From Lysobacter sp. cf310 (GTDB lineage: Bacteria; Pseudomonadota; Gammaproteobacteria; Xanthomonadales; Xanthomonadaceae), in the NCBI RefSeq assembly GCF_900114355.1, contig NZ_FOSS01000009.1, forward strand, positions 1 to 35,311: a DNA stretch of 35,311 bases, given 5' to 3'. How positions within the stretch are numbered: the stretch's first letter is position 1; each line of letters starts with the position of its first letter. This document shows, one piece after another, positions 4,922 to 35,311 of this stretch. The translations under genes were made by a program, and so were the position numbers. The notes beneath the pieces were generated by a model. That model saw only the letters and a program-made list of their open reading frames with translations. It had not been told where the DNA came from and did not search any database.

Positions 4922-4998
4922 TGGCAGGGGCGGTAGGATTCGAACCTACGGATGCCAGGATCAAAACCTGGTGCCTTGGGCCTCTTGGCGACGCCCCT
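4922..4998 (-). tRNA. tRNA-Gln (anticodon TTG)
   Basis: A minus-strand cloverleaf with acceptor AGGGGCG/CGCCCCT, anticodon loop TTTTGAT containing TTG, T loop GGTTCGAATCC, discriminator G and encoded CCA (4922-4924). The D loop is slightly long. A tRNA-Gln between ispE and prs is a conserved arrangement in gammaproteobacteria. The first 38 bases of the gene are also the last codons of ispE. Confidence 0.95.
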
Positions 4999-5872
4999 GC
5001 ATAAGGTGTGTTTCGAGTACGGCGTGCAACGGAGACCGCGCGACGCCGGCCGCCGTCCAGGCCCGAAGACCGGAAGGCACTACCGTCAGCGCCGCTTCGG
5101 CGGATTCGCGTGTGGCGAACTCGACGAAACAGCCGCTGCCGGAGCCGGTCAGACGCGGCGTACCGACTCGCGACAAGGCGACGAACGCGGCTTCCACAGC
5201 CGGTTCGCGCAGGCGCAGAACCGGCTCGAACGCATTCCCGAGCGGCATACCCGAAACGAAGTCCGATATTGTCGCGGGCGCAGCATCCCGCGTCAATTCA
5301 GCCGATTGGAATAAGGCCGCGGTGGGCGCATGCACGCCGGGGTCGACCAGCAGATACCAGGCCGGCGCCAGCGCGATCGGCGACAGGGCCTCGCCCACGC
5401 CCTCGGCCCAGGCGTTGTCGCCGCGCACGAACACCGGCACGTCCGCGCCCAGGCTCAGGCCCAGCTCGGCCAGGCGATCCACGCCCAGGCCTGTGCCCCA
5501 GAGCGCATCCAGGGCGAGCAGCACGGTGGCCGCATCGGACGAGCCGCCGCCGAAACCGCCGCCCGCCGGGATGCGCTTTTCGATGACGATATCTGCACCT
5601 TGAGCGACGATAGCCGATTCTTTCAGTAATTTGGCCGCGCGAATGGTCAGATCCTGATCCTCGGGCACGCCCGCGACCGAGGCACCGTGGCGCACGATGC
5701 GGCCGTCGTCGCGCACGCGCAGGCGAATCGAGTCTCCCCAGTCCAGGAGACGGAACACGGTCTGCAACAGGTGGTAGCCATCGGCGCGGCGGCCGGTGAT
5801 GCGCAGGAACAGGTTCAGCTTGGCCGGGGCGGGCCACAGGGACCAGGGGTGTTCGGGAGGAGCGGCGGACAT
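4961..5872 (-). CDS. ispE: 4-(cytidine 5'-diphospho)-2-C-methyl-D-erythritol kinase
   Basis: Phosphorylates CDP-methylerythritol in the MEP route to isoprenoids. It is a GHMP kinase with PAKLNLFL near residue 16 (Lys18), the glycine-rich ATP loop [14 protein letters not shown] at about 102-115, and GADVPVFV for the substrate aspartate. The length is 303 residues, normal to slightly long. The unusual feature is the 3' end: the frame runs into tRNA-Gln and stops at a TGA made of the last two anticodon bases plus the next A. The last 13 residues are therefore dictated by tRNA sequence. lolB ends 27 bases upstream, so the genes are probably cotranscribed. Confidence 0.96.
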
Positions 5873-5899
5873 GGTCGGTGGATCGCGTGGCGGAGCCGC

Positions 5900-6901
5900 T
5901 TACGGGCCTTTCGGGGCGGATGAACCGGTCGGGTGACGCCGCAGCCAATCGCTCAACGCGCGGTTGTAGGCGAGCGCATAAGCGCTGGCCTGGTTCATCA
6001 GTTTCATATGCTCGGCACCCTGGATCATGTCGCTGGTGCCGGCGAGATTGCGCCCGCCACGCACCCCAGGCGCGTCATGCGCAAGCCCTGGCGTGTCGCA
6101 GCTATAGCCGCAGATGCCGATCGCGCCCAGATCGCCGCGTTCGACATTGGCCAACATGTCCGCAGCGGGATCGTTGAGATTGAGTCCCGCCAACTCCTTG
6201 CGCAGTCGTGCCGCCATCGAATTGTCGATCGGCACCCAAGGCGTCTGCACCGCGGCCGTGGGCACTGGCGCAGGCGCGGTCGCCTGCCACTCATCCACGA
6301 TGACTTTGACCTTGGCCTCGCCGCGCACCGCATCCAGCCGCGACGGCAACGCCGGGCCGCCCGCGCCATCGCCCGGGGGCCAACGGTAGTCGATGCCCCA
6401 GCCGCCCTGCTCGATTCGAGCCGGGCGGCCGTCTGCGCCGTAACGCACGCTCGCCGGCCCCTGGCCCACGGCGCGCAGGCCGCGCACCCAGTCGCTCAGG
6501 GCCGCGACCGGAATCTCCCAGCCGGTGGCCTCGCGCAGCAGCGCGGCGGCGTCGGGGCCGCTGCGGGTGCCGCCTTCCAAGCCCTCCAGGCGCGCACCGG
6601 CAGCATCGCCACTGAGGCGCCAGCTCTGCCGGGTGACCGGGGCGCTGAGCGCGACTTCGTAGCGATCGCCGTCCTGCCGCCATTCGATCCGCCCGGAGCC
6701 GCCGTTGCGGCCGTTGCTGAGCGCGATGCGGCCGCTCAGGGACCATCCGGTCTGAGCGCGCAATTCGCTCTCGCGCGCGGCCTGGGCGGCCTCGGCGGCG
6801 GCGGGCGCCAGCGGCGGCGGTGCCGGGCCGCGCACGACCTGCCCCGCGCACGCGCTCAGCAGTGCGGCCAGGGCCGCCACGGTCAGCGCGCGCGCCTTCA
6901 T
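5900..6901 (-). CDS. lolB: Outer-membrane lipoprotein receptor LolB with C-terminal extension
   Basis: LolB accepts lipoproteins from LolA and inserts them into the outer membrane. The N-terminus has a signal peptide with lipobox LSAC and Cys18. A LolB beta-barrel domain spans about residues 45-206 (GWSLSGRIALS, GWEIPVAALSDWVRG, ending VKVIVDEWQ). A typical LolB ends there, near 200 residues. This one continues through a Pro/Ala linker (207-224) into about 109 further residues, including GICGYSCDTPG and a helical end AYALAYNRALSDWLRRHP. I do not recognise the extension. The ATG overlaps the stop of the TPR gene by four bases (ATGA), so the start is well supported. Confidence 0.9.
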   Translation of the reverse strand: MKARALTVAALAALLSACAGQVVRGPAPPPLAPAAAEAAQAARESELRAQTGWSLSGRIALSNGRNGGSGRIEWRQDGDRYEVALSAPVTRQSWRLSGDAAGARLEGLEGGTRSGPDAAALLREATGWEIPVAALSDWVRGLRAVGQGPASVRYGADGRPARIEQGGWGIDYRWPPGDGAGGPALPSRLDAVRGEAKVKVIVDEWQATAPAPVPTAAVQTPWVPIDNSMAARLRKELAGLNLNDPAADMLANVERGDLGAIGICGYSCDTPGLAHDAPGVRGGRNLAGTSDMIQGAEHMKLMNQASAYALAYNRALSDWLRRHPTGSSAPKGP

Positions 6902-8634
6902 GCGCCGGTCTTTTCCAGCGCGCGCTTGAGGGCGCGGTTCTCGGGATCCAGCTTGCGCGCCTGCTCGAAATACTTGCGCGCCTCGTCCTTCTTGCCCACC
7001 GCCCACAGCACCTCGCCCAGGTGCGAGGCGATCTCCGGATCCTTCTGCAGGGTCAGGGCGCGGCGCAGCTCGACCAGGGCTTCCTGATTCCGGCCCAGTC
7101 GATAGAGCACCCAGCCGTAGCTGTCGATGATCGCGGCGTTGTCGGGTTCGGCGGTGCGCGCGCGCTGGATCAGTTCCAGCGCTTCCTGATAGCGCGTGGT
7201 GCGATCGGCCAGGGTGTAGCCCAGCGCGTTGAGCGCGGCCACGCTGTCGGGCTCGGCGACCAGGATGCGGCGGAAATCGGCCTCGGCGCGCGGGATGTCG
7301 TCGCGGCGCTCGTAGCTCAGAGCGCGCGCGTACAGCACTTCCGGCTCGTCCGGGAACGCGGCCAGGCCGCGCGCGAACGCGTCCAGCTCGCCGGCCTCGT
7401 TCTTGTCCTCGGCGCGCAGCGCGGCCTCCAGCAGGTAGGCGTCGCGGCGGGTGTCGTCCTCGGCCGAGGCGTCGGACTGCAGCGCGCGCAGGGCCGCGTA
7501 GGCCTCGTCGGCGCGCTTGAGTTCGTGCAGCACGTTGGCCGCGCGCAGCTTGGCGACCCAGCGCTGCGGGCCGCCGGGCACACCGCGGTACCAGTCCAGG
7601 GCCTCGTCGTTGCGCTCCAGGAATTCGGCGATCTGGCCCAGCAGCAGGCGCCGGCCCGGTTCGGGCTTGGCGGCGTTGCGGCGCAGCTCGTCGTAGAGCT
7701 TGGTCAGCGTGGGCTTGTCCTCGGCGCGCGCCATCAGCGAGGCGCGCAGGGCGTAGGTCTGGTCGTCCTGCGGGCCGCGGCCGAGGATCGCGGCGGCCGC
7801 GGGCAGGTCGCCCAGGGCGTCGTATTCCTGGGCGATCAGGCCGCGCATCTGCGGGTCGGTGTCGGCCTGGGCGGCGATCGACTCCAGCACCTTGCGCGCT
7901 TCGTCCTTGTTGCCGTCCTCGCGCAGCTGGCTGGCGCGCAGCAGGCTCACCCGCGGATTGCCGGGGAAACGCTCGACCACCTCGCCGACGATGCGCTCGG
8001 TCAGCTTGGGCTGGTCCAGGCGCTGGGCGTACAGGCCGAACGCGACCCAGGCCATCAGGTCCTTGGGCATCTGGCTGCCGTCGATCAGCTTTTCCAGCAG
8101 GCGCGCGGCCTGCTGCGGGTCCTTGGAGCCGGTCGAGAGCACGCCCAGCACGCGTCGCCAGCCGGTGTCGTCGGCCAGCATCAGGCGGTCCAGGTCGCGC
8201 AGGGCGGCGCGTTCGTCGCCGCCGCGCAGGGCCAGGATCGCCTGCGAGGCCAGCAGGGGCGCGCCCTCGCCGCCCAGCTCGCGCCACAGCGCCAGCGATT
8301 CGGCGGCCAGCTTGTCTTCCTTGGCCACGATCGCGATGTCGGTCGCGCGCGCGGCCAGTTCCTTGTCCTTGGCGGCGCGGGCGGCGGCGGCGTAGGCGGT
8401 CGCGGCCTCCTTGAGCTTGCCGGCCTGGAGCGCGAACTCGCCGGTCAGCAGCGGCTCCAGGGCCGCGCTGGTGGCGGCCGAAGCGTCGGCGGACACGGCC
8501 GCGGCCGGCTTGGCCGCGGGCGCGGCGGCGACCGGCGCCAGCAACACCGCCAGGACGGCGCCAGCGAGGAGGCTCAACGTGCGCGAGGGCGCACGGCGGC
8601 TTGAGACAGCATGAATCGAACCCATCGAATCCAT
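6898..8634 (-). CDS. Exported tetratricopeptide-repeat protein
   Basis: About 578 residues with an N-terminal signal-type segment (basic SRRAPSRT, then a hydrophobic LLAGAVLAVLLAPVAAA) and a long array of TPR helical repeats. The clearest are near the C-terminus: LNALGYTLADRTTRYQEALELI, IIDSYGWVLYRLGRNQEALVELRRAL, and EVLWAVGKKDEARKYFEQA. TPR arrays mount protein-protein contacts. Its place upstream of lolB and divergent from hemA is the same as that of the PA4667-type TPR protein in Pseudomonas, which hints at a periplasmic or envelope assembly role. The start is 8634 or 8625; longer readings would run into hemA. A specific function is not established. Confidence 0.85.
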   Translation of the reverse strand: MDSMGSIHAVSSRRAPSRTLSLLAGAVLAVLLAPVAAAPAAKPAAAVSADASAATSAALEPLLTGEFALQAGKLKEAATAYAAAARAAKDKELAARATDIAIVAKEDKLAAESLALWRELGGEGAPLLASQAILALRGGDERAALRDLDRLMLADDTGWRRVLGVLSTGSKDPQQAARLLEKLIDGSQMPKDLMAWVAFGLYAQRLDQPKLTERIVGEVVERFPGNPRVSLLRASQLREDGNKDEARKVLESIAAQADTDPQMRGLIAQEYDALGDLPAAAAILGRGPQDDQTYALRASLMARAEDKPTLTKLYDELRRNAAKPEPGRRLLLGQIAEFLERNDEALDWYRGVPGGPQRWVAKLRAANVLHELKRADEAYAALRALQSDASAEDDTRRDAYLLEAALRAEDKNEAGELDAFARGLAAFPDEPEVLYARALSYERRDDIPRAEADFRRILVAEPDSVAALNALGYTLADRTTRYQEALELIQRARTAEPDNAAIIDSYGWVLYRLGRNQEALVELRRALTLQKDPEIASHLGEVLWAVGKKDEARKYFEQARKLDPENRALKRALEKTGA

Positions 8635-22198: not shown

Positions 22199-24088
22199 TC
22201 AGAAGGTGATGCTCCAGCTGTCGATGCGGCCGGTGTCCTGACTGGCGTTGTCGTTCACGCGCAGGTTCCAGGTGCCGTTCAAGGCTTCCGTGCTCAGGTT
22301 CTTGATGAAGGTGCCGGTCACGTTGTCGGCGCTGCCGCCGCTGCGGTTGTGGATGTTGTAGAGGGTGCCGTCCGGCGCGACCAGATCGACTTTGAGATCG
22401 CCCTTGTAGGTGTGCAGGATGTTGACCGTGATCGAGGCGTTGCTGGGCGCGTTGCCGGTACGGCCGGAGACCGCGATCGGGCTGTTGACGGTGGCGTTGT
22501 CGGCGATCGGATAGTCCGTGCCGTTGCTGTAGGTCTGGGCGCCGGTGCCGCCGACGGTGACCGAGGCGGTCTTGGTGTTGCTGGCGCCGTCGTCGTCGGT
22601 GACCGTCAGCGTGACCGTGTAGGTGCCCGCGGTCGCGTAGGTGCGGCTGGGGTTGGTCGCGGTGGAGGTGGCGCCGTCGCCGAAGTTCCAGCTGCGCGAT
22701 GCGATGGAGCCGTCGCTGTCGCTGGAGCTGTCGGTGAAGGTCGCGGTCAGGCCCGAGACCGAGGCGCTGAAGTTCGCCACCGGCGCATTGTTGCCGGGAC
22801 CGCCGCTGGCGGTCTTGGCCGCTTCGCCCAGGAACGCCAGGCCGAGCTTCGCGAACGGCACGCTGTTGGTCGCCGAATTGCCCATGTTGGCCAGGGTATC
22901 GCCCGAGGTGTGCAGGTTCGGGAACAGACGACCCTCGTGGTACATCGCCGACGGATAGCCGGCCGCGGTCCAGGAGGCATGGTCGGAGCAGCCGTAGCCG
23001 CAGGCTTCGGTGACCAGGTTGAGGCCGCTACCGCTCATGTAGGCGGTGAACAGGTCGCGCAGGAACTGGACCATGTTGGCGTTCGAGTAGTCGGTGATCA
23101 CCTTGACGTGCGGATCGGAACTGGTGCGGTAGTTGGTCATGTCCAACTGCAGGGCCGCGACCACGTTCACGCCCTGGGTCTGGTACGAAGTCGCGATCGC
23201 CTTGGAACCGCGCAGGCCCACTTCCTCGGCCGCATAGCCCATGAATTTGACCGTGCGCTTGGGCCTGTAGCCGCTGGCCATGGCGATGCGCAGCACTTCG
23301 GTCAGGGTGGCGATGCCGGAGGCGTCGTCGTCGGCGCCGGGCGCGTTCATGGCGTTGCCGCTGCCGGAGTTGGAGATCGAGTCCAGATGCGCGCCCAGCA
23401 CCACGACCTCGTTGGGCAGATCGGTGCCCTGGATGGTCAGGATCACCGAGGGCTGGGTCGAGCAATTGGTGCAGCCGGTGTAGAGCTCGGCACTGACGTC
23501 GCTGCGGCCGTTGGCCAGACCCAGCCAGGTGTTGCGGATCCACTCGGCCGAGGTACGGCCGGTGGTCGAGGCGTAGTAGCGGTTCGGATACTGGGTGGAC
23601 AGATGGCTGATGGTCGAGCGGATGTTGGCCTCGCCGACCTGACCCAGCCAGGGCGTGACCGTGGCCTGGTTGTCGATGGTGTAGGCGGCCAGGAACTTGC
23701 CGGCCATCGCCTGCGCGCTGCGGTCGTCGCGCACGAAGGCTTCGGCCTCGGCGCGGGTGGAGAAGGCGAAGTAGCCGCCGCAGCGGCGTTCCTTCTCGTG
23801 CACATGGCGGGTGATGTCGGCGAGCTGATGGGTCTTCACTTCCGAGATCACCAGCGGCGCGCCGGTGACGCCGACGCGGGCGCTGGACTGGCGGGCCAGG
23901 GTTTTGACGCCGGCGTCGTAGGTCTCGCGCGAGGTGACCACGAAGACCGGTGCGAACGGGTCGTCGCTGGCGTCGGCGGGACGCGCGTGATCGTGCTCGT
24001 GGGTCGTGGTCTGCGCGTACGCGGGGACCGCGGTCAGAGCGAGGGCCAACGCGAGCAGCGTCGGCAGCGGGGCATGGACGGGATTCAT
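22199..24088 (-). CDS. Secreted M28 aminopeptidase with PKD and P domains
   Basis: 629 residues. A signal peptide of about 25 residues (TLLALALALTAVPAYA) is followed by a propeptide-like region (26-130), an M28 zinc aminopeptidase domain, PKD (about 434-514) and a C-terminal P/Homo-B domain (about 518-629). Zinc and catalytic residues of the Vibrio-type leucyl aminopeptidase are visible: His234 (GAHLDS), Asp253 (GADDDASG), Glu288/Glu289 (AEEVGLRGS), Asp316 (LDMTNY) and His370 (SDHASW). It likely trims N-terminal residues from peptides outside the cell. AGGAG seven bases before the ATG supports the start. The P domain is nearly identical to those of the M14 and S1 neighbours. Confidence 0.95.
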   Translation of the reverse strand: MNPVHAPLPTLLALALALTAVPAYAQTTTHEHDHARPADASDDPFAPVFVVTSRETYDAGVKTLARQSSARVGVTGAPLVISEVKTHQLADITRHVHEKERRCGGYFAFSTRAEAEAFVRDDRSAQAMAGKFLAAYTIDNQATVTPWLGQVGEANIRSTISHLSTQYPNRYYASTTGRTSAEWIRNTWLGLANGRSDVSAELYTGCTNCSTQPSVILTIQGTDLPNEVVVLGAHLDSISNSGSGNAMNAPGADDDASGIATLTEVLRIAMASGYRPKRTVKFMGYAAEEVGLRGSKAIATSYQTQGVNVVAALQLDMTNYRTSSDPHVKVITDYSNANMVQFLRDLFTAYMSGSGLNLVTEACGYGCSDHASWTAAGYPSAMYHEGRLFPNLHTSGDTLANMGNSATNSVPFAKLGLAFLGEAAKTASGGPGNNAPVANFSASVSGLTATFTDSSSDSDGSIASRSWNFGDGATSTATNPSRTYATAGTYTVTLTVTDDDGASNTKTASVTVGGTGAQTYSNGTDYPIADNATVNSPIAVSGRTGNAPSNASITVNILHTYKGDLKVDLVAPDGTLYNIHNRSGGSADNVTGTFIKNLSTEALNGTWNLRVNDNASQDTGRIDSWSITF

Positions 24089-24139
24089 GGTGCGACTCCT
24101 GGTGGCTGCGCCCGGTGTGTTTGGGTGTGGGGCGCGACG

Positions 24140-24173
24140 AAAGAACGGCCGGAACCTGGGGGTCGCCCCGGCC
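24140..24173 (-). terminator. Possible weak terminator after the M14 gene
   Basis: A 6-bp stem GGCCGG/CCGGCC (24147-24173) with a 15-base loop is followed in the minus direction by GTTCTTTC. It lies in the 147-base gap between the M14 and M28 genes; the rest of the gap shows only the M28 ribosome binding site. Confidence 0.3.
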
Positions 24174-24235
24174 GCGCGGGCGACGATGCGGCGCCGCCGC
24201 CCCGGCGCCGGCCGGAACGGCGGTCGCGCGCACGG

Positions 24236-26515
24236 TCAGAAGGTGATGCTCCAGCTGTCGATCGTGCCGGTGTCGGCGCTGGCGTTGTCGTTCACGCGCA
24301 GCTTCCAGGTGCCGTTGAGCGGCTCGCTGCTCAGGTCCTTGGTGAAGGTGCCGGTCACGTTGTCGGCGCTGCCGCCGCTGCGGTTGTGCAGGTTGTAGAG
24401 CGTGCCGTCGGGCGCGACCAGGTCGACTTTGAGATCGCCCTTGTAGCTGTGCAGGATGTTGACCGTGATCGAGGCGTTGCCGGGCGCGTTGCCGCTGCGT
24501 CCGCTGACCGTGATCGGACTGTCGACGGTGGCGTTGTCGTTGATCGGATAGTCGGTGCCGTTGCTGTAGGTCTGGGCGCCGCCAGTGCCGACGATGACCG
24601 ACGCGGTCTTGGTGTTGCTGGCGCCATCGTCGTCGGTCACCGTCAGCGTGACCGTGTAGGTGCCGGCCGCGGCGTAGGTCTTGCTGGGATTGGTGGCGGT
24701 GGAGCTGCTGCCGTCGCCGAAGTTCCAGCTGCGCGAGACGATGCTGCCGTCGCCGTCGCTGGAGTTGTCGGTGAAGGCCACGCTCAGGCCGCTGACCGCG
24801 GCGCTGAAGTTCGCTACCGGCGGCGCATTGCCGCCGCTGCCGGAGACCGTGAAGCGCACCGCATTGGGCGTGCCGGGCTTGCCCGACGCGTCGGTGGCCT
24901 GCACGTAGACCGTGTGCACGCCCGGGCTGAGCCCCGTGGTCGGTAGCGCCACCGTCACCGTCTCGGTGCTGGCGTTGTAGCTGCCGTCGCTGGCGTTCAT
25001 CGCCACCGCCACCGCGCCCGCGGCCCAGGGCGGCGCATCCAGATAGGCGCGCGCCGAGGCGATGTTCTGCACCGCCTCGCTGCCGTTGCTCTGGTTGTAG
25101 GCGGCGTCGCTGACGCTGGCGGTGATCGTCACCGGCGTACCGGCCGGCACGCTCACCGCCGAGGCGCTGACCGACTGGGTGTCGGGACCGGACGGATACT
25201 GATACGGCGCATACAGATTGCGCGCGGCGTAGCGCAGCGCGCGCAGGTTGTTGGGCAGGGTCGCGCTCTGGAAGGTCGAGCAGCTCTCGAAGAAGGCCAC
25301 GCCCAGCTCGATCGTATAGCTGGGCACGCCGAGCAGACCGTACATGGTGTCGTCGGTGGTGCCGTCGGTGGCGTAGAGCTCGTTGGACTGCTGCGGCCGA
25401 TAGTTGTTGAAGTAAGCCAGGCGCCGACCCAGGGTCTGCAGCGGCACGCTGTTGGGCGCCGGCGTGGTGGTATCGCCCCAGGACCACAGCACCAGCTGCG
25501 AATAGCTGTGGATGTCGAAGAACAGGCCCTGATAGTCGTCGGGCGCGGCGCTGCCGACGGCATCGCCGCGGCGGTCGGGGAAGATGCCGCCGGTGTAGAC
25601 GCCGCTGGCGTTGCGGGTGCCGGCGACCAGGCGCACCAGGTTCTGGGTTTCCGGTTCGGACGAACTGGCCGGTCCGCGATAGGTCTCGGCGCAGGCGTTG
25701 CCGCTGGAGCCGCCGGCCGCGCTGTTCCAGTGGAAGGGGAAGTTGCGGTTGAGATCGACGCCGTAGGACGAAGCGCTGCAGCTGCCGTTGAGGTTGTCGG
25801 TGTTCTTGCGCCAGGACGCGCCGGCCTCGGCCTTCTTGCGGCCGTCGGGATTGGCCTGCAGGACCAGCTGGAACGCGAAGTTGTCCATCAGCCAGGTCGC
25901 CTCGGCGTCGCTGCCGTAGCCGTTGACCAGCCATTCGGCGAAGCGCGTGAGCAGCTCGGCCGGGGTGTACTCGCGCGCGTGGATGGAGCCGAACACCACC
26001 ATGGTCGGCTTGTTCGGCAAGACCGCGTCGGTGGCGGTGTTGGTCAGCCGCAGCACCTTCATCTCGTAGCCGGTGGCGGCGTTGCGGCTCTTCTGCCAGC
26101 TCGGGCCGATGTTGGCGATGCGCGCCAGGTTCGGCTTGGCCGCGGCCAGGTCGTCCATGGTGGTGTAGGTCTCTTCGACCGTGCGGTAGCAGGCGTAACC
26201 GGGAATCGCGGCCGGCCCCAACAGGGGCGCGTTCGCCATCGCCGCCTGCATGGCCTGCAGGCGTCGGGTCGCGTCGGCATCGACCTCGACCCGCAAGCCG
26301 GCGCGGCGCAGCGCCTCGATGTCTTCGGGCAAGGCCTCGACGCGCACGGTGCGCGCCTCGCGATCGACGATCAGGTGTTGGAAGCGGGAGGCGATGCGCT
26401 GCAGTTGCGCGCGATCGCGGTAATGGGCGGTGACGAACACCGAGGCGTCTTGCTCGGCGGCGGGCGCCGCGGAGGCGAAAGCGAACAGCAACACAGCGGC
26501 GTGGACGAGGCGCAT
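24236..26515 (-). CDS. Secreted M14 zinc carboxypeptidase with Ig-like, PKD and P domains
   Basis: 759 residues. Signal peptide of about 20, then a propeptide-like region, M14 carboxypeptidase (about 110-435), an Ig-like segment (about 445-560), PKD (565-643) and P domain (647-759). The zinc ligands are His179 and Glu182 (HARE) and His336 (FFDIHSYSQ). Substrate residues include Asn256-Arg257 (DLNRNF) and the catalytic base Glu403 (YTIELG). It cleaves single residues from peptide C-termini, complementing the aminopeptidase next door. GGAG precedes the ATG at nine bases. An extra Ig-like module between catalytic and PKD domains sets it apart from its neighbours. Confidence 0.95.
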   Translation of the reverse strand: MRLVHAAVLLFAFASAAPAAEQDASVFVTAHYRDRAQLQRIASRFQHLIVDREARTVRVEALPEDIEALRRAGLRVEVDADATRRLQAMQAAMANAPLLGPAAIPGYACYRTVEETYTTMDDLAAAKPNLARIANIGPSWQKSRNAATGYEMKVLRLTNTATDAVLPNKPTMVVFGSIHAREYTPAELLTRFAEWLVNGYGSDAEATWLMDNFAFQLVLQANPDGRKKAEAGASWRKNTDNLNGSCSASSYGVDLNRNFPFHWNSAAGGSSGNACAETYRGPASSSEPETQNLVRLVAGTRNASGVYTGGIFPDRRGDAVGSAAPDDYQGLFFDIHSYSQLVLWSWGDTTTPAPNSVPLQTLGRRLAYFNNYRPQQSNELYATDGTTDDTMYGLLGVPSYTIELGVAFFESCSTFQSATLPNNLRALRYAARNLYAPYQYPSGPDTQSVSASAVSVPAGTPVTITASVSDAAYNQSNGSEAVQNIASARAYLDAPPWAAGAVAVAMNASDGSYNASTETVTVALPTTGLSPGVHTVYVQATDASGKPGTPNAVRFTVSGSGGNAPPVANFSAAVSGLSVAFTDNSSDGDGSIVSRSWNFGDGSSSTATNPSKTYAAAGTYTVTLTVTDDDGASNTKTASVIVGTGGAQTYSNGTDYPINDNATVDSPITVSGRSGNAPGNASITVNILHSYKGDLKVDLVAPDGTLYNLHNRSGGSADNVTGTFTKDLSSEPLNGTWKLRVNDNASADTGTIDSWSITF

Positions 26516-26689
26516 GGCGTAACTCCGTGACGTGCGGGCCCGGGCCCGCTGCGAACGTGCCGGAACGATCGGCGCGAGCCGATCCGTGGGAAGGGGGACC
26601 TAACGCACGCGCACGCGGACTCCCGCCCCTGCGCTGGCGGCGCGGGAGCGGGAGGACGTGCACGGCCGGGTTTACGCTCCCGTAGCGTG

Positions 26690-26715
26690 TCCTCTCCGGC
26701 CGAAGCCGGAGAGGA
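26690..26715 (-). other. UUCG-capped hairpin after the lysyl endopeptidase gene
   Basis: A perfect 11-bp stem, TCCTCTCCGGC/GCCGGAGAGGA, with a C(TTCG)G loop on the minus strand lies 10 bases after the stop. No T-run follows, so it is probably a 3'-end stabiliser or atypical terminator. The 209-base gap otherwise holds only the M14 upstream region. Confidence 0.55.
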
Positions 26716-26724
26716 CGTGTCGGA

Positions 26725-29137
<2,413 letters not shown>

Positions 29138-29166
29138 AAAAAAAGACCCCGGCCGTAGCCGGGGTC
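29138..29166 (-). terminator. Terminator of the first S8 protease gene
   Basis: A GACCCCGGC/GCCGGGGTC hairpin with a four-base TACG loop (29145-29166) is followed on the minus strand by TTTTTTT. It gives the S8 gene its own transcript end. Confidence 0.9.
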
Positions 29167-29207
29167 GGAGAGAGCATTCGCGGCGTCCTTGCCGGCGAAT
29201 TCGATGC

Positions 29208-31295
29208 TTAGAACGTGACGCTCCAGCTGTTGATGTAGCCGGTGTCGCCGCCGGCGTTGTCGTTGACGCGCAGCTTCCAGGTACCGTTCAGCGCTTCGGT
29301 CGACAGGTTCAGCGTGACCGTCTTGGCGACGTTGTCGGCGCTGCCGCCGGTGCGGTTGTGGATGTTGTAGAGCGAACCGTCCGGAGCCACCAGGTCCACC
29401 TTCAGGTCGCCCTGATAGGTGTGCACGATCGCGACCGTCACCGAAGCGTTGCTCGGGGCGTTGCCGCTGCGGCCGGAGACCGTGATCGGGCTGTCGACCG
29501 TGGCGTTGTCGCTGATGGTGTAGTCGGTGGTGTTGCTGTAGGTCTGGGTACCGCCACCGCCGGTGGTGTAGCTGCCGGTCAGGCTGGCGCCCGAGAACGT
29601 CGAGTAGCCGCGCACCAGCACGTGGTAAGTGCCGGCCTGGGCCGTGGCGATGTTGCAGGTCTCGGCGTTGGTGCTGCCCTCGGACTTGCAGTCGTAGCTG
29701 GCCGTGGTCGGCGCGCTGCCGAACTTCACGAACAGGTCGGCATCGCCGCTACCGCCGGCGGTGACGAACTTCAGACCGCTGGCGCCGGCCGGCACCACCA
29801 GGGTGTAGCGCAGCTCGGTGCCGGCGCTGCCGGACAGACCGGTGACCGGGGTGCCGTTGGTCAGCACGCCGGTCGGCGGCGGGGTGGTGCCGTTGACGGC
29901 GTCGACCGCGGCCTTGGCGTTGAGGATGCCCGGGCCGATGCTCTGCGACGGGGTCGACGGGAACGCGGTGACGTTGGCCTTGATGATCGATTCGATCTCG
30001 GCCGGAGTCTTGGGCGTGGTCGCCACGGCCTGCATCAGCGCCACCACGCCGGCGACGTGCGGGGTCGCCATCGAGGTGCCGTTGTAGGAGGCGTAGGTTT
30101 CCGAACCCGGCGTGGTCGAACCGCTGTTGAGGGTCGACAGGATGTTCGAGCCCGGTGCGGCGATGTCGATCAGCGCGCCGTAGTTGGAGAAGCTCGAACG
30201 CGCGCCGGTGCTGGTGATCGAAGCCACCGCGATCACGTTGTTGCAGTTCGCGGGCGAGGCGTTGGACACGTTGACGTTGTCGTTGCCGGCGGCGATCACC
30301 AGGGTGGTGCCGCGGCTGACCGCGCTGTTGATCGCGTTCTGGGTGGTGGTGCCGCAAGCGCCCGAGCCGCCCAGCGAGAGGTTGATGACCTCGGCCGGAT
30401 TGGCGTTGGCGGGCACGCCGCTGACGGTGCCGCCCGAGGCCCAGATGATGGCGTCGGCGATATCGGAGTCGTAGCCGCCGCAGGTGCCGAGCACGCGCAC
30501 CGGCACGATCTTGGCGCCGTAGGCGACGCCGGCGACGCCCTTGGCGTTGTTGGTCACCGCGGCGATGGTGCCGGCGACGTGGGTGCCGTGCCAGCTCGAA
30601 CCCTGCGCGGCATGGGTGCCGCCGCACTGGTTGGCGCTGACCCAGTCGCCCGGATCGCTGGGATCGCTGTCGCGGCCGTTGCCGTCGTTCGACACGGTGG
30701 TGTCGATGATGAAGTCGTAGCCCGGCAGGATGTTGGCGCTCAGATCGCTATGGCTGGTGATGCCGGTGTCGAGCACCGCCACGACCGAACCGGAGCCGTT
30801 GGTGACGTCCCAAGCCTGGTTGGCCTTGATGCCGTAGGTGCCCGAGTAGCCCCACTGCTCGCTGTAGCGGGTGTCGTTCGGGGTCAGGAAGGCGTGGTTG
30901 AGCTTGTCGACTTCGACGTATTCGACGTTGGCGTCGGCGGCGATCTGACGCATCAGCGACTCGGCTTCGACGTGGTCGAGCGCGCGATCGCTGCGCACGA
31001 CTTCGGCGCCCAGGGCGGTGCGGCGCAGCGAGCGGATGCCCAGGGCCTTGCCGGCGCCGGCGGTGGAGGCGGCCGTGCTCAGCGAACGCTGCAGCGTGCT
31101 GGCGTTGGTGGTCGGGGCGCTACCGTCCTTGAACTTGACGATGAAGCGCTGAACTTTTTCGGAAGACTGCAGGCCGGCGAGATTGACGCGGCCAGCGGCG
31201 AACGCCGGGGCGGCGATCATGCTCGAAGCCAGTACGGCTGCCGTGGCGGCGGCCAGGGCGTGCACGCGAATGCGACGCGAGGACAGCTGAGACAT
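29208..31295 (-). CDS. Secreted S8 subtilisin-like protease (S8-1) with PPC and P domains
   Basis: 695 residues. Signal peptide of about 34, I9 propeptide (FIVKFKDGSAP ... NVEYVEVD, about 48-130), S8 domain with Asp176 (VLDTGI), His236 (HGTHVAGT) and Ser408 (GTSMATPHVAG), a PPC (pre-peptidase C-terminal) domain (about 475-580) and a P domain (583-695). The oxyanion Asn is in AAGNDN. It is a broad-specificity extracellular endopeptidase by family. It differs from the second S8 gene in carrying PPC where that has PKD. GGGGG stands eight bases before the ATG. A perfect CRP/Clp-type palindrome lies about 200 bases upstream. Confidence 0.96.
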   Translation of the reverse strand: MSQLSSRRIRVHALAAATAAVLASSMIAAPAFAAGRVNLAGLQSSEKVQRFIVKFKDGSAPTTNASTLQRSLSTAASTAGAGKALGIRSLRRTALGAEVVRSDRALDHVEAESLMRQIAADANVEYVEVDKLNHAFLTPNDTRYSEQWGYSGTYGIKANQAWDVTNGSGSVVAVLDTGITSHSDLSANILPGYDFIIDTTVSNDGNGRDSDPSDPGDWVSANQCGGTHAAQGSSWHGTHVAGTIAAVTNNAKGVAGVAYGAKIVPVRVLGTCGGYDSDIADAIIWASGGTVSGVPANANPAEVINLSLGGSGACGTTTQNAINSAVSRGTTLVIAAGNDNVNVSNASPANCNNVIAVASITSTGARSSFSNYGALIDIAAPGSNILSTLNSGSTTPGSETYASYNGTSMATPHVAGVVALMQAVATTPKTPAEIESIIKANVTAFPSTPSQSIGPGILNAKAAVDAVNGTTPPPTGVLTNGTPVTGLSGSAGTELRYTLVVPAGASGLKFVTAGGSGDADLFVKFGSAPTTASYDCKSEGSTNAETCNIATAQAGTYHVLVRGYSTFSGASLTGSYTTGGGGTQTYSNTTDYTISDNATVDSPITVSGRSGNAPSNASVTVAIVHTYQGDLKVDLVAPDGSLYNIHNRTGGSADNVAKTVTLNLSTEALNGTWKLRVNDNAGGDTGYINSWSVTF

Positions 31296-31853
31296 CTATG
31301 TAACCCCCGAAGCTGGAATAAGCCGCTAAGCGCGGCAAAAAACCGCAAGAACCTCTCTCCGGCCGGCGGGACTACCGCGGCCTTAGGCTCGAACGGTGGA
31401 TACGGACAGGTGACAAAATGTGTCCGCAAAGTGACGCTAGTCGACCTTTCGTACCCATCGCAACGGGGATATCCACTCAATGTGCACAGGTATTTGTGAC
31501 TATCGTCACAAATTATTGCGGTAACCGCTTTCACGTGAAATCGACACGACAATATGCCGCATCGCAACATACGGTTGCGCGTCTGAGACGGGAAACCCAG
31601 GTTAAGTCGCGGTTTTAGCAGGGAATCTTGGGCGCCAACCGGGCGAATTCAGCCGTTTTGAGGTGCCGGCAGGCACACAGCAGGCGGTGCCTACGGTGGC
31701 GCCGCGCGCCCGTTGCGAAACGGCGCCTGCAAGATCAGCCGGGGCCCCAGCCTGCCACCGCCCCAGGTGCCGAGGCGTGTGGCGCAAGGTGCAGCGGCCG
31801 CGCCGCCAATTCGGCCTCGCGCCCCGCTTTCGCGAGGGCGCCTGGCGGTCGTT
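31296..31853 (-). other. Intergenic control region between S8-1 and the I9 protein
   Basis: No gene is supported; short frames here have poor codon use. A TTGAGT (31475-31480) followed at 17 bases by TGGGTA (31452-31457) is a weak promoter candidate that would put the Clp-type site near -58. A GGCGCCG/CGGCGCC pair (31698-31727) forms a hairpin downstream of the I9 gene that may end its transcript. No remnant of a catalytic domain is visible after the I9 stop. Confidence 0.4.
31492..31513. promoter_or_regulatory. CRP/Clp-type binding site upstream of S8-1
   Basis: ATTTGTGAC-TATC-GTCACAAAT is a perfect 9-base inverted repeat, matching the TGTGA-N6-TCACA core exactly (31495-31510). Clp, the Xanthomonadaceae homologue of CRP, is known as a global activator of secreted lytic enzymes in Lysobacter. 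The centre is about 207 bases before the S8-1 start codon. Confidence 0.75.
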
Positions 31854-32303
31854 TCAGCGGTCCAGACTGCCGCCGATCGGCATGATCGACACGACGCCGT
31901 CGATCTCGATGTACTCCACGTCCGGATCGGCCGCGAAGGTCTGCATCAGTTTCTGCGCCTCGGCCTTGCTCAAGGGGCGGTCGGCGCGGAACACGTCGGC
32001 GGCCACCGACAGGCGCAGCTTGTGTTCCAGCTTGATCGCGCCGCCCCCGCTCTTCAGGCCGCTATTGCCGGCGGTGCTGGCAAACCGCGCCTTGACGCTG
32101 GCTTCCTCGCGCGCGGGCACGCTGCCGTCGCGGTATTTGACGATGAATTGCTGGTACGGGCCGTTGCCCTGCAGCTCGCCCACATGCGCCTTCGGGGCAC
32201 CGCCGTCGCCATTGGAGTTGGCGGACGCCATGCAGGCGCTCATCGCCAAAGCCAGCGCGGCTGCGCTGACGGCGAGCAGGGATCGGCGGAATAGGCTGGG
32301 CAT
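31854..32303 (-). CDS. Free-standing I9 propeptide/inhibitor-like lipoprotein
   Basis: 149 residues. The N-terminus MPSLFRRSLLAVSAAALALAMSAC looks like a lipoprotein signal with lipobox MSAC and Cys24. The remainder matches the propeptides of both flanking S8 proteases: FIVKYRDGSVP, FRADRPLSKAEAQKLM and PDVEYIEIDGVV. The frame stops where an S8 catalytic domain would begin, with no such domain following. In the family, I9 domains act as folding chaperones and as tight inhibitors of their protease. A separate lipidated one could hold or block S8 protease at a membrane; a truncated gene is the other option. The pro-region and signal are intact, which favours a functional gene. Confidence 0.8.
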   Translation of the reverse strand: MPSLFRRSLLAVSAAALALAMSACMASANSNGDGGAPKAHVGELQGNGPYQQFIVKYRDGSVPAREEASVKARFASTAGNSGLKSGGGAIKLEHKLRLSVAADVFRADRPLSKAEAQKLMQTFAADPDVEYIEIDGVVSIMPIGGSLDR

Positions 32304-32473
32304 GGCATCGGCTCCTGGATCATGGCGTTCCCGATTTCGAAACGCACCGGCGGTGCGAATGGGGTTGAAGCTGATTCGTACGCTAGTCGGCCCGCGCTGA
32401 ACGGTGCGGAACCGGCGCCGGCGTAGGTGCGGCCGGCGACGCGCGCAGGCGCGCCGCCGGACCGCGGGACAAT

Positions 32474-32509
32474 GGTGCGTCCGAGCTCGGGGTCGGGCCC
32501 GGACGCACC
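32474..32509. other. Hairpin between S8-2 and the I9 gene
   Basis: GGTGCGTCCG (32474-32483) and CGGACGCACC (32500-32509) form a 10-bp stem with a 16-base loop. No T-run follows, so it may be a processing or stability structure at the end of the S8-2 transcript. Confidence 0.4.
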
Positions 32510-32562
32510 CGCATGCCGGAACCGCCGTTCGCGCGGCGGGCCCGACCTGCTTGCCCGCCGAC

Positions 32563-34668
32563 TCAGAAGGTGACGCTCCAGCTGTTGATGTAACCCAGGT
32601 CCTGCGCCGCGCGGTCGGTGGCACGCAGCCTCCAGGTGCCGTTGAGCGCTTCGCTGCTCAGGTTGATCACGCGATTGGTGATGATCACGTGGTCGCCGCT
32701 GTCGGCGGTATTGGGACGATTGAACAGGTTGTAGACCGTGCCGTCCGGCGCGATCAGATCGACGATCAGATCGCCGCGGAACGGATGCTGCACGTTCACC
32801 GACACCTGGGCGTTGCTGGGCGCGTTGCCGCTACGGCCGGAGACCACGATCGAGCTGCTGGCGCCGCTGACGTTGTTGTCGGGAATGTTGACGTCGGTGG
32901 TGTTGCTGTAGGTCTGGGTGCCGCCGGTGCCGCCGACGGTGACCGTGGAGGTCTTGGTGTTGGTGGCGCCGCCGTTGTCCGTGACCGTCAGGGTGACCGT
33001 GTAGGTGCCGGCCGCCGCATAGGTGCGGCTGGGGTTGGTCGCGGTGGAGGTGCCGCCGTCGCCGAAGTTCCAGCTGCGCGAGGCGATGGAGCCGTCGCTG
33101 TCGGTCGAGGCGTCGGTGAACGTCACCGTCAAACCGCTGGCCGACGAACTGAAGTTCGCCACCGGCGCCGCGTTGACCGGACCGCCGCCGCCCGCGGCCG
33201 CCACCGCCGCCGCCGCATCGATCAGGCCGGGGCCGCAGCCGCCGGGGCAGTTGGCCGCGGAGATCGGACGCGCGGTGTTGGCCAGGATCTGGCGCACCTG
33301 CTCGAAGGTCTTGGGTGTGGCCGAGACCGCCTGGATCAAGGCGACCACGCCGGCCACATGCGGCGAGGCCATCGAGGTGCCCTGCTCGAAGGCATAGCCG
33401 TTGTTCGAGTACGTGGACAGGACGCCCTGCGCATCGTGGCTGCGCGTGCAGTCGCCGGCGCGGGGCACGCGATTCAAGGGCAGGAACTCGTTGGTGGGCG
33501 AGCAGGTCTCGCCGCCCGGCGCGGTGATGTCGATGGTGGCGCCGTAGGTCGAGTACCAGGCGCGGCGGCCGCCCTGGTCGCTGGCGGCGACGCTGATCAC
33601 GTTGTTGCAGCTCGCGGGCGTGGAGCCGGCGACGTCGATGTTGCTGTTGCCGGCGGCGGCGACCACGATCGAGCCGTTCGCGGTCGCGGTGTTGATCGCA
33701 TCCTGGTAGGCGGGCGTGGCCGAACACGGCGCATCGCCGCCCAGCGACATGTTGATGACCTCGGCCGGATTGGCGTTGGCGGGCGCGCCGGCGACGGCGC
33801 CGCCGGAAGCCCAGACGATGGCGTCGGCGATGTCGGAGGTGGCGCCGGAACCTTCGCGGCCGAGCACGCGGATCGGCACGATGCGCGCACCGTAGGCCAC
33901 GCCGGCCACGCCGGAGGCGTTGTTGGTGACCGCGCCGATGGTGCCGGCGACGTGGGTGCCGTGATAGACGCCCGAGGAATCGTTCGGGTTGGCGTCGCGG
34001 CCGTTGCCGTCGTCGGACGCGCCGCAGCCGGCGACGCCGCCGCAATCGGTCGCCGAGAAGCCCGTGGTGGAGGTGACGAAGTCGTAGCCGGTCAGGACAT
34101 TGGCGTTCAGATCGGGGTGCGCGACGATGCCGCTGTCGATCACCGCCACCACCACGCCGTTGCCGTTGGTGCTGTTCCAGGCGGTCGGCGCGTTGATGCC
34201 CACCGCGCTGTTGGCGTAGTGCCATTGCTCGTTGTAGCGAGTGTCGTTGGGCACCAGCAGCGCCTTCATCACGTAGTCGGGCTGTACCCACTCCACGTTC
34301 GGATCGGCGGCCAGCTGTTGGATCACCGCGCGCGCTTCGTCGCTGTTGAGGGCGGTGTCGTTGACCACGACGTCGGCGCCCAGCGCCATCCGGCGCAGAT
34401 GCTTCAGGCCCAGGCGCTTGCCCTTGGAGGCCGCCGGCAGCACGGTGCGCGTCGAAGCGGCGCTCAGCGAGGAAGCGACCGAGGCGGTGCTGGCGGTGGG
34501 TGCGCTGCCGTTCTTGTACTTGACGATGAAGCGGCTGTAGTTCTCGCCGGACTTCAGCCCGGAAACGACCGCGTGGCCGGCGAAGGCCGGCGCGGCGATG
34601 GAGGTCAACGCCAACGCGGTGGCGGCGGTGAGCGCGCGTACGCGCAGCGTGGTGTTCGAGTTCGACAT
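32563..34668 (-). CDS. Secreted S8 subtilisin-like protease (S8-2) with PKD and P domains
   Basis: 701 residues. Signal peptide of about 30 (TAATALALTSIAAPAFA), I9 propeptide (FIVKYKNGSAP ... ADPNVEWVQPD), S8 domain with Asp178 (VIDSGI), His236 (HGTHVAGT) and Ser432 (GTSMASPHVAG), PKD (about 500-580) and P domain (584-701). Compared with S8-1 it has extra cysteine-bearing loops (TDCGGVAGC near 208, ETCSPTNEF near 387, NCPGGCGPG near 473) that may form disulfides. The P domain belongs to a different subtype (RATDRAAQDLGYINSW) than that of the RVNDNA type. GAGGATC about ten bases before the ATG supports the start. Confidence 0.95.
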   Translation of the reverse strand: MSNSNTTLRVRALTAATALALTSIAAPAFAGHAVVSGLKSGENYSRFIVKYKNGSAPTASTASVASSLSAASTRTVLPAASKGKRLGLKHLRRMALGADVVVNDTALNSDEARAVIQQLAADPNVEWVQPDYVMKALLVPNDTRYNEQWHYANSAVGINAPTAWNSTNGNGVVVAVIDSGIVAHPDLNANVLTGYDFVTSTTGFSATDCGGVAGCGASDDGNGRDANPNDSSGVYHGTHVAGTIGAVTNNASGVAGVAYGARIVPIRVLGREGSGATSDIADAIVWASGGAVAGAPANANPAEVINMSLGGDAPCSATPAYQDAINTATANGSIVVAAAGNSNIDVAGSTPASCNNVISVAASDQGGRRAWYSTYGATIDITAPGGETCSPTNEFLPLNRVPRAGDCTRSHDAQGVLSTYSNNGYAFEQGTSMASPHVAGVVALIQAVSATPKTFEQVRQILANTARPISAANCPGGCGPGLIDAAAAVAAAGGGGPVNAAPVANFSSSASGLTVTFTDASTDSDGSIASRSWNFGDGGTSTATNPSRTYAAAGTYTVTLTVTDNGGATNTKTSTVTVGGTGGTQTYSNTTDVNIPDNNVSGASSSIVVSGRSGNAPSNAQVSVNVQHPFRGDLIVDLIAPDGTVYNLFNRPNTADSGDHVIITNRVINLSSEALNGTWRLRATDRAAQDLGYINSWSVTF

Positions 34669-34858
34669 CGTAGAAAGATCCTCGAATGAAGCCCATGGAC
34701 AGGCCGCGGATTGCGGCGATGGCGGTGGGCGGGCACGTGCGCCCACCGGACCGTGAATCGCGGCGCGTGCCGCGATACGGATCGAAACTACGTTTGGACG
34801 CACGCGGAGGGCACGGGAATGCCGCGCATTTAGCGGACCTAAATGCGACTTGAATCAC

Positions 34859-34880
34859 AATTTCATAAATTGAAATTATC
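34859..34880 (-). promoter_or_regulatory. AT-rich palindrome over a putative -10 of S8-2
   Basis: AATTTCA (34859-34865) and TGAAATT (34871-34877) are inverted around TAAAT. A GATAAT hexamer on the minus strand (34875-34880) overlaps it and fits a -10 box. With that -10, the TGTG-N8-CACA site upstream would sit near -42, where class II CRP activation occurs. The palindrome could be a second operator. All placements are inferred. Confidence 0.4.
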
Positions 34881-34904
34881 GCTACACCACAAAGCCACAA
34901 TCAC

Positions 34905-34920
34905 TGTGTTTTCAGGCACA
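34905..34920. promoter_or_regulatory. CRP/Clp-like site upstream of S8-2
   Basis: TGTGTTTTCAGGCACA fits TGTGA-N6-TCACA at eight of ten core bases. It is about 245 bases before the S8-2 start, similar in layout to the perfect site before S8-1. The rest of the 549-base gap 34669-35217 holds the S8-2 leader and the terminator of the next gene. Confidence 0.5.
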
Positions 34921-35130
34921 AATCTGGCGAACTCACGCCCAACGCAGAAGCGGACCGCTCCCCCTACCCTTTCAATATCAAGCAATTAGACAGAATCACC
35001 GCGCCGATGTGTGGTCGAGCCCAAGGCCGAACATGCGTCGATGACGGACTTGCCTGAGTGGAAAAATTCGCCCACCCGGCCGACCCCGCCTGGCCGTGAC
35101 GCTGCCGCCCAGCGCCCGCGCACCGCGCAA

Positions 35131-35156
35131 AGAAAAGCCCCGGCCGAAGCCGGGGC
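35131..35156 (-). terminator. Terminator of the rightmost protease gene
   Basis: GCCCCGGC/GCCGGGGC stem with a TTCG loop (35137-35156) followed on the minus strand by TTTTCT. Its stem is close to those at 22136 and 29145. Confidence 0.9.
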
Positions 35157-35217
35157 TCGAAGATCGCCACACGGTGAGCGGTCGCGGCGCGGACAGCGTC
35201 GCGACCGCCGCTTGCGA

Positions 35218-35311
35218 TCAGAAGGTGATGCTCCAGTTGTCGATGTAGCCCACGTCCTGGCCGGCCCGATCGGCGGCGCGCAGCCGCCAGGTGCCGTTGA
35301 GCGCTTCGGTC
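35218..35311 (-). CDS. C-terminal end of a further P-domain protein (5' end outside window)
   Basis: Thirty codons before a TGA read TEALNGTWRLRAADRAGQD and then VGYIDNWSITF. This is the end of a P/Homo-B domain and is closest to that of S8-2 (RATDRAAQDLGYINSWSVTF). It is therefore probably another secreted S8 peptidase of the same cluster; the catalytic family cannot be seen. It has its own terminator. Confidence 0.85.
   Translation of the reverse strand, partial: TEALNGTWRLRAADRAGQDVGYIDNWSITF

Follow-up and report, generated by a model that had tools for sequence, protein, structure and literature searches.

Unrelated secreted peptidases encoded head to tail on the minus strand of a contig of Lysobacter sp. 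cf310 end in one common C-terminal domain, the P domain (PF01483), and comparison with related genomes indicates that recombination has moved these tails between catalytic heads. The contig is C5 of a genome of 4.7 Mb in 12 contigs and was analysed as a whole (35,311 bases; the window). The term tail cassette is used here for the stretch from the start of the PKD or PPC domain through the P domain to the stop codon. We read the locus as a conserved Lysobacter peptidase island in which recombination swaps tail cassettes and the tail is an exchangeable accessory module, and we put the probability of this reading at about 0.75. The array has a conserved gene order, a modular tail and an embedded gene for a propeptide-like product, and some unrelated genes of the same genome carry tail DNA that is more alike (up to 100%) than the tails of their own orthologues elsewhere. 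Because this cross-family identity is mostly bounded by the cassette, recombination is taken to move tails between heads, at times to distant P-domain genes, and the likeness of the tails to stem at least partly from DNA exchange between genes.

The first-pass annotation had described five complete open reading frames (ORFs) of the M28, M14, S1, S8 and S8 families head to tail on one strand, all ending in a P domain, with a truncated sixth gene, and the ORFs and their Pfam and PDB matches bear out this description. All five complete proteins match PF01483 with 66–76 bits against a cut-off of 21, the P domain is preceded by PKD in four genes and by PPC in one, catalytic or metal-site motifs are present in five of five, and the intergenic gaps range from 147 to 558 bases. 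The gene at 22199..24088 (like all others of the array, on the minus strand) encodes a secreted M28 aminopeptidase-like protein of 629 aa with a PKD-P cassette at about 22199–22792 (Pfam M28 125 bits, PKD_4 77, P 72); it contains zinc-site motifs, and its best NCBIfam match, aminopeptidase LapA, reached 206 bits, far below the cut-off of 600. The gene at 24236..26515 encodes a secreted M14 carboxypeptidase-like protein of 759 aa with a PKD-P cassette at about 24236–24829 (M14 174 bits, PKD_4 75, P 76) and the motifs HxRE, HSY and TIELG. An S1 lysyl endopeptidase-like gene of the Lys-C/Achromobacter protease I type lies at 26725..28785 (686 aa as called, its true start likely being Met11 at 28755) and has a PKD-P cassette at about 26725–27318. 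Its head matched only Trypsin_2 in Pfam, below the cut-off of that family; against the PDB it aligned over residues 217–490 with 4nsy (E 5e-114) and 1arb (E 3e-103), and on these alignments it is a homologue of the Lys-C/Achromobacter protease I mature domain. The alignment retains Asp at mature position 225, presumably the lysine-specificity residue, and the motifs TANHCG, SDFTL, GGSSGSP and ADYYGR are present, which we take to be the catalytic His-Asp-Ser and the specificity Asp. Two S8 subtilases with D/H/S motifs complete the set, one of 695 aa at 29208..31295 with a PPC-P cassette at about 29208–29810 (S8 204 bits, PPC 58, P 73), and one of 746 aa as called at 32563..34803 with a PKD-P cassette at about 32563–33174 (S8 182 bits, PKD_4 77, P 66), the true start of which is likely Met46 at 34668. 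Between them, inside the array, lies a gene for a predicted I9-like lipoprotein of 149 aa resembling a free-standing subtilase propeptide (31854..32303); neither this gene nor the PKD and PPC domains had been noted in the first-pass annotation. The sixth P-domain gene is a tail only, at 35219..35311 on the contig end, where 93 bases encode 30 residues and a stop, covering P-domain positions 58–86 and ending in WSITF.

The comparison covered the own genome (G000), same-genus genomes (G001–G019), one genome of the same family (G032), one of another family (G037) and 65 named loci (L-labels), of which 63 were scanned for P tails and two (L150, L151) left out. Arrays were fetched from 11 of the 19 same-genus genomes (G001, G005, G007, G008, G009, G012, G014, G015, G016, G018 and G019), which together with G000 are the 12 genomes referred to below; G002, G003, G004, G006, G010, G011, G013 and G017 stood outside the array comparison. 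The proposal that unrelated catalytic domains with P domains cluster more than chance allows was confirmed, since the largest cluster contained 7–12 P matches in 10 of 10 same-genus genomes of one to three contigs, whereas 20,000 random placements per genome (with the sizes of G007, G032 and G037 rounded) never gave clusters of more than five. In G032, 6 of 10 P matches formed a cluster; G037 had 14 P matches and no cluster, its sole near pair being two matches in one reading frame. The one-strand order S8..(M12)-S1-(S1)-M14-M28 was found in 12 of 12 genomes, with M12 inside the array in nine and two S1 genes in nine; in G014 a 7.8-kb gap separates M14 from M28. Lysobacter enzymogenes ATCC 29487 (L090) has tailed M12, S1, S1, M14 and M28 genes in the same order, as well as one short tail-less S1-like frame; L136, L140 and L143 also hold mixed P arrays (families in the named loci were assigned by blastp to labelled heads). 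An M14 relative without a P tail was present in 27 of the 63 scanned loci, mainly from Dokdonella, Tahibacter and Lysobacterales, which shows that head and tail are separable. The M28 orthologues carry P without PKD in 9 of the 12 genomes, and PKD is present in the window lineage (G000, G012 and G015). The closest named match in the M14 search was Lysobacter sp. Root916 (97%). A plasmid search with the M28 protein gave partial relatives only, none of 74 records covering 80%. In addition, two arrays have at their S8 end a partial P match in a short frame, of 70 aa in one and 96 aa in the other (G016:C1:4515404-4515613 and G001:C1:4541808-4541987), possibly orphan tail remnants.

Tracts of shared DNA were detected by blastn between unrelated genes of one genome. 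They begin at the tail cassette and mostly end at the stop codon or a few codons past it. The M12 and S1 genes of G019 are 99.5% identical over 605 bp from the PKD start to the stop, those of G009 97.9% over 607 and those of G008 97.6% over 616, and S8 and S1 of G018 are 96.5% identical over 624. In G001, M28 and M4 genes about 1.2 Mb apart share a tract of 96.8% over 375, and in G014 an S1/S8 tract of 89.1% over 879 extends well past the stop. By comparison, the P domains of G009 and G019 orthologues in these two families are only 89 and 90% identical. In the draft assembly of L. psychrotolerans ZS60 (L100), a trypsin-like gene (so called from motifs read by eye and counted as its own family), the Lys-C-type S1, M14 and M28 carry one PKD-PPC-P cassette with 94.3–97.1% identity over 921–928 bases. 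Across the 12 genomes, the corresponding S1, M14 and M28 orthologues end in PKD-P or in P, and this PKD-PPC-P form is absent from them. Other named loci hold tracts of 88–93% (L088, L090, L136 and L143), and in L132 two genes of unassigned family share one of 94.5%. A PKD-P frame at L098:14051-15733, about 92% identical to the adjoining M14 gene over 1205 bases and not labelled M14, looks like a second, broken M14 copy. Purifying selection together with codon bias, each gene being inherited vertically, could also make tails alike, and the cassette is indeed well conserved, with a mean column identity of 75% over 34 cassettes; most nearest neighbours of the tails are same-family orthologues, as such inheritance would predict. 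It does not account for cross-family DNA identities of 94–100% within one genome set against 74–90% for the orthologue pairs in the 25 listed strictly concerted quartets, nor for four genes of L100 sharing a cassette form foreign to their M28, M14 and S1 orthologues. The L100 tracts, as well as the tree and the topology test described next, contradict it unless they are assembly artefacts, and we consider it barely credible.

Statistics on the tails point in the same direction. Among 127 tails, 22 were nearest to a tail of another family in the same genome, while shuffling gave a mean of 2.1 and a maximum of 11, and the observed value was reached in 0 of 5000 shuffles; L088, L089 and L100 were added in this test and the phosphoesterases left out, and its null takes no account of genome relatedness. 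With one genome per close group the count was 22 of 95 (null maximum 12), and without the named loci it was 18 of 88 (null maximum also 12). Of the 15 cross-family pairs with at least 93% identity, 12 were within one genome. The cassette tree comprised 43 rows of M12, S1 and M14 cassettes with PKD, the S8, M28, M4 and phosphoesterase tails being left out. It places M12 and S1 of the same genome as sisters in G009 (100/99), G008 (100/99) and G019 (100/96), unites the window-lineage S1 and M14 cassettes (100/98), and requires eight family changes where two would do. An approximately unbiased (AU) test rejected a single M12 clade, a group chosen after the nearest-neighbour result, with p-AU 1.6e-56. 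The pattern of concerted evolution, in which paralogues of one genome are more alike than orthologues over a bounded tract, was found for the listed pairs and not for most genes.

The own genome also records the repetition of tails, through its contig ends. Its 13 P-domain matches are divided among C5 (six), C4 (four), C2 (two) and C10 (one). At the end of C4 lie four complete S8-P genes and, after them, an S8-PKD gene that runs off the contig. On a single continuous stretch of G012, this end aligns at 5371–7784 and the reversed start of C5 at 7881–8065 (past the stop codon); because the two adjoin there, the cut sixth gene of the window is most likely the S8-PKD gene of C4. The full array would then most likely comprise about 10 P-tailed peptidases (seven S8, S1, M14 and M28), half of which are in the window. 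The window end (the 35219–35311 region) is identical to C2:246–340 in 95 of 95 bases, stopping just after the stop codon, and C2:1–340 matches the C4 end in 148 of 149. Three contig ends of this genome thus fall in such tails, and the contigs probably broke there because the tail is repeated. A decayed sixth gene was considered and rejected, as the C4, G012 and C2 alignments show a contig break at a repeated tail. On C2, upstream of an M4-P gene, there is apparently a tail identical to that of an array S8, an identity which a collapsed repeat could have exaggerated. The head of this C2 gene lies beyond the contig end; in G015 the M4-P gene has an M12 as its neighbouring P gene, so that an M12 head is our guess by analogy. 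The match on C10 belongs to a non-peptidase, a calcineurin-like phosphoesterase ending in PKD-P (L017:8177-10576, equal to G000:C10:48176-50575); the DNA of its P domain and that of the window's S8-PPC-P gene are 88% identical. These contig ends, and the draft state of L100, are what would be expected if near-identical tails were assembly artefacts, that is, short-read repeats collapsed to a consensus. The effect is also seen in G009 and G001, which are single-contig genomes, with a different resolved head on each copy, and we judge a purely artefactual origin to be very unlikely.

Several observations weigh against frequent exchange or limit its reach. Most tails follow their family: among 122 tails, the nearest neighbour was of the same family in another genome for 77, of the same family in the same genome for 15, of another family in the same genome for 19, and of another or unassigned family in another genome for the remaining 11. 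Strictly concerted orthologue quartets numbered only 91 of 1363, and 340 were at least one-sided (L088, L089 and L100 of the named loci were added, and an over-long G015 ORF was among the M28 heads compared), which makes exchange recurrent and not the rule. In the cassette tree the tails still cluster by family, since shuffled labels need 18.6 changes on average. In the window genome itself the M28, M14 and S1 cassettes are only 85–88% alike (M28 and M14 88.5% over 589 bases), so that exchange there is old, except for the identity at the contig ends, where a collapsed repeat is possible. Of the 18 named loci with at least two P genes, only L100 has cross-family tracts of at least 94%, and 12 are without tracts, a frame overlap in L096 and the M14 copy in L098 being set aside. 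Near-identity elsewhere could partly reflect assembly collapse in drafts, though two of the genomes concerned, G009 and G001, consist of one contig each. Finally, removal of the tail from the other enzymes would be an extrapolation from an M12 enzyme of L. soli and from Achromobacter protease I.

Each enzyme appears to begin with an export signal and a pro-region, followed by the catalytic head and then by a C-terminal cassette that ends in the P domain, the cassette comprising one to three predicted Ig-like or jelly-roll modules (PKD-P, PPC-P, PKD-PPC-P or P alone). The PKD-P cassette of the M28 protein was modelled well, with a mean predicted local distance difference test score (pLDDT) of 91. 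The best PDB match of the model by E-value was the carbohydrate-binding fragment 2c26, with a poor whole-length fit (root-mean-square deviation 13.9); the PKD half matches Vibrio PKD1 domains with 48–50% identity, and the P half matched Kex2 (2id4) and furin (1p8j) in Foldseek with probability 1.00. In the model, the closing motif forms the final beta strand of the P domain (residues 196–204; pLDDT block means 90 and 96). The first-pass annotation had given this ending as (S/T/N)WS(I/V)TF for the whole array; of 123 same-genus genes whose P domain is strong and uncut, the strict form ends 83 and a looser W(S/T)(I/L/V)xF ends 122. Four actinobacterial P proteins end similarly, in SWALQF (two), SWKLTF and SWTLTL, which assigns the motif to the fold. 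A terminal motif acting as a free sorting signal was therefore rejected. The earlier suggestion that the common tail serves sorting, maturation or anchoring is not supported as stated, in view of the strand-forming end, tail-less paralogues and a tailed phosphoesterase; the tail may still have a part in maturation.

A related explanation sees in the P tail a common signal for sorting or anchoring that one dedicated partner reads. It can draw on the near-universal looser ending, on the phosphoesterase, which carries the tail as a generic tag would predict and shows that the tail is not peptidase-specific, and on homogenisation, which would keep a tag matched to its partner. Against it, tail-less paralogues lie near tailed enzymes (M28 in five genomes, S8 in six, and M4 in two plus a partial one in a third), and the own genome has 19 S8 genes, found as 21 stretches because two of them gave two each; seven belong to the array and have a P tail (an expected one in the case of the cut gene), and the other 12 lie elsewhere, where no P match was seen. 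Both findings argue against an obligatory export tag. The tail architecture also varies between orthologues (P alone, PKD-P or PKD-PPC-P), and the C-terminal end is an integral strand in the model, similar in the actinobacterial proteins, which come from hosts that lack this type of outer membrane. We consider such a signal unlikely. Signals of the PEP-CTERM and GlyGly-CTERM types consist of a short C-terminal hydrophobic helix and a basic cluster after the last domain; no such signal was found in the five window proteins, which end with the P-domain strand and nothing after it. Autotransporters have a C-terminal outer-membrane beta barrel; the C-terminus here is the P-domain jelly roll, and no barrel domain was among the Pfam matches. 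Probably, then, the tail is an accessory module that helps in folding, stability or binding before release, and not an obligatory secretion tag. According to excerpts of a report on the Asp-specific M12 enzyme of L. soli, the gene encodes a P domain and the enzyme was purified as a short fragment of the product (PMC12285256), which fits removal of the tail; by analogy, a maturation role of the tail is possible. As a separate observation, a tail-less M28 gene adjoins the tailed one in G009, G018, G001, G016 and G007 and offers a natural control for what the tail does.

The 149-aa product encoded at 31854–32303 aligns over about 100 residues, with 35% identity, to the propeptide regions of both complete S8 enzymes of the window. 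It has a signal-like N-terminus with a lipobox-like Cys24, A23-C24 is invariant in seven aligned rows, and a lipobox-like (S/T/G)AC occurs in the short homologues listed. A homologue lies inside the array in 12 of 12 genomes, between the S8 genes and M12/S1, and in the window lineage and G014 one further S8 gene follows it. The predicted fold is beta-alpha-beta-beta-alpha-beta with a mean pLDDT of 75, residues 1–34 and 138–149 being unreliable. The PDB matches were weak (E 0.002–0.013, none reaching 0.001), and four of the best five were short chains of 81–112 residues from protease entries, which we take for prodomains. No significant Pfam family was found, I9 included (TerB at E 0.093 was below cut-off), and no NCBIfam match; the two features of an I9-type product, homology to S8 propeptides and the fold, were found in the sequence and the model, respectively. 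The possibility that the gene is an S8 remnant was rejected, since in every one of the 12 genomes the short ORF has a signal of its own, and in 31296–31853 no S8 catalytic motif was read by eye in the three minus-strand frames. The simplest reading is a putative guard or folding helper for the subtilases, probably acting as a periplasmic or outer-membrane guard or chaperone. It is also conceivable, if unlikely, that in each lineage gene conversion keeps the tails alike for one lineage-specific partner and that the lipoprotein propeptide silences the subtilases until exit. If this were true, the partner might be a release protease, a surface receptor or a matrix, and array and guard would form one co-evolving secretion-and-release system.

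On the reading of a peptidase island with exchangeable tails, the exchange itself would proceed by gene conversion or unequal crossing-over, either of which can leave the same sequences. The enzymes may leave the cell by a type II system (one full GspD above cut-off is present in the own genome), and propeptide and tail would be removed outside. The subtilases, the Lys-C-like enzyme and, in relatives, M12 would cut inside chains, while M28 and M14 would trim the ends, so that prey or environmental protein might be digested jointly. Such joint degradation by endo- and exopeptidases had been proposed for the window; the conserved, non-random array with its catalytic motifs agrees with the proposal, and digestion itself is a fair expectation. 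Tail exchange across folds represents an unusually clean case of modular evolution, because the heads are without homology and the edges of the tracts can be read exactly. The genes also form a natural set, in which the same tail occurs on different heads and the same head with different tails, and with which the role of P, PKD and PPC tails can be tested. The array includes an enzyme of the Lys-C type, a standard tool of proteomics, and the arrays of relatives include an M12 gene of the family of the L. soli Asp-specific enzyme. In addition, bacteria rich in subtilases may have, in the conserved lipoprotein propeptide, a gene for self-protection.

Other features of the window are minor. Long plus-strand frames of 671–865 aa lie opposite the peptidase genes (22349–24946, 26875–28890, 29358–31499 and 32404–34689); they were taken as shadow frames and set aside as genes without further study. 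A minus-strand group of tRNA-Thr, tRNA-Gly and tRNA-Tyr is located at 868–1180, and a tRNA-Gln at 4922–4998.

Parts of the array resemble known systems. The P domain has the same fold as that of kexin and furin (PF01483), where it follows S8; here it follows M28, M14, S1, S8, M12, M4 and a phosphoesterase. Achromobacter protease I has a C-terminal extension that is removed on maturation. The window S1 aligns with this enzyme and Lys-C over the whole mature domain and keeps the Asp at position 225; unlike them, described as single enzymes, it is an array member, and its extension is the shared PKD-P cassette. The array lipoprotein is like the subtilisin propeptide and the I9 inhibitors in sequence and predicted fold, and differs in that it has a gene of its own, carries a lipobox and is a constant part of the array. 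A 2008 survey lists bacterial S8 enzymes with P domains, as excerpts of it show (PMC2605481). For L. enzymogenes M497-1, more than 117 peptidase genes, of which 80 lie "within the gene cluster", are given by Takami et al. 2017 as cited in excerpts of PMC12285256, so that clustering of peptidase genes in this genus is already in print. No earlier account of tail exchange between unrelated peptidase folds, or of a fixed lipoprotein propeptide, was found in the titles and abstract beginnings of the open-licence literature. A further parallel is the glucan degradation locus of Caldicellulosiruptor, which serves polysaccharide degradation in a thermophile of another phylum. It is likewise a locus of multimodular hydrolases with repeated regions, for which, in the accessible sections of PMC7142884, expansion by gene recombination after duplication was proposed and the repeats were said to have complicated a knockout. 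The Lysobacter array differs from it in joining unrelated peptidase folds to a common PKD/PPC/P cassette that also matches distant genes.

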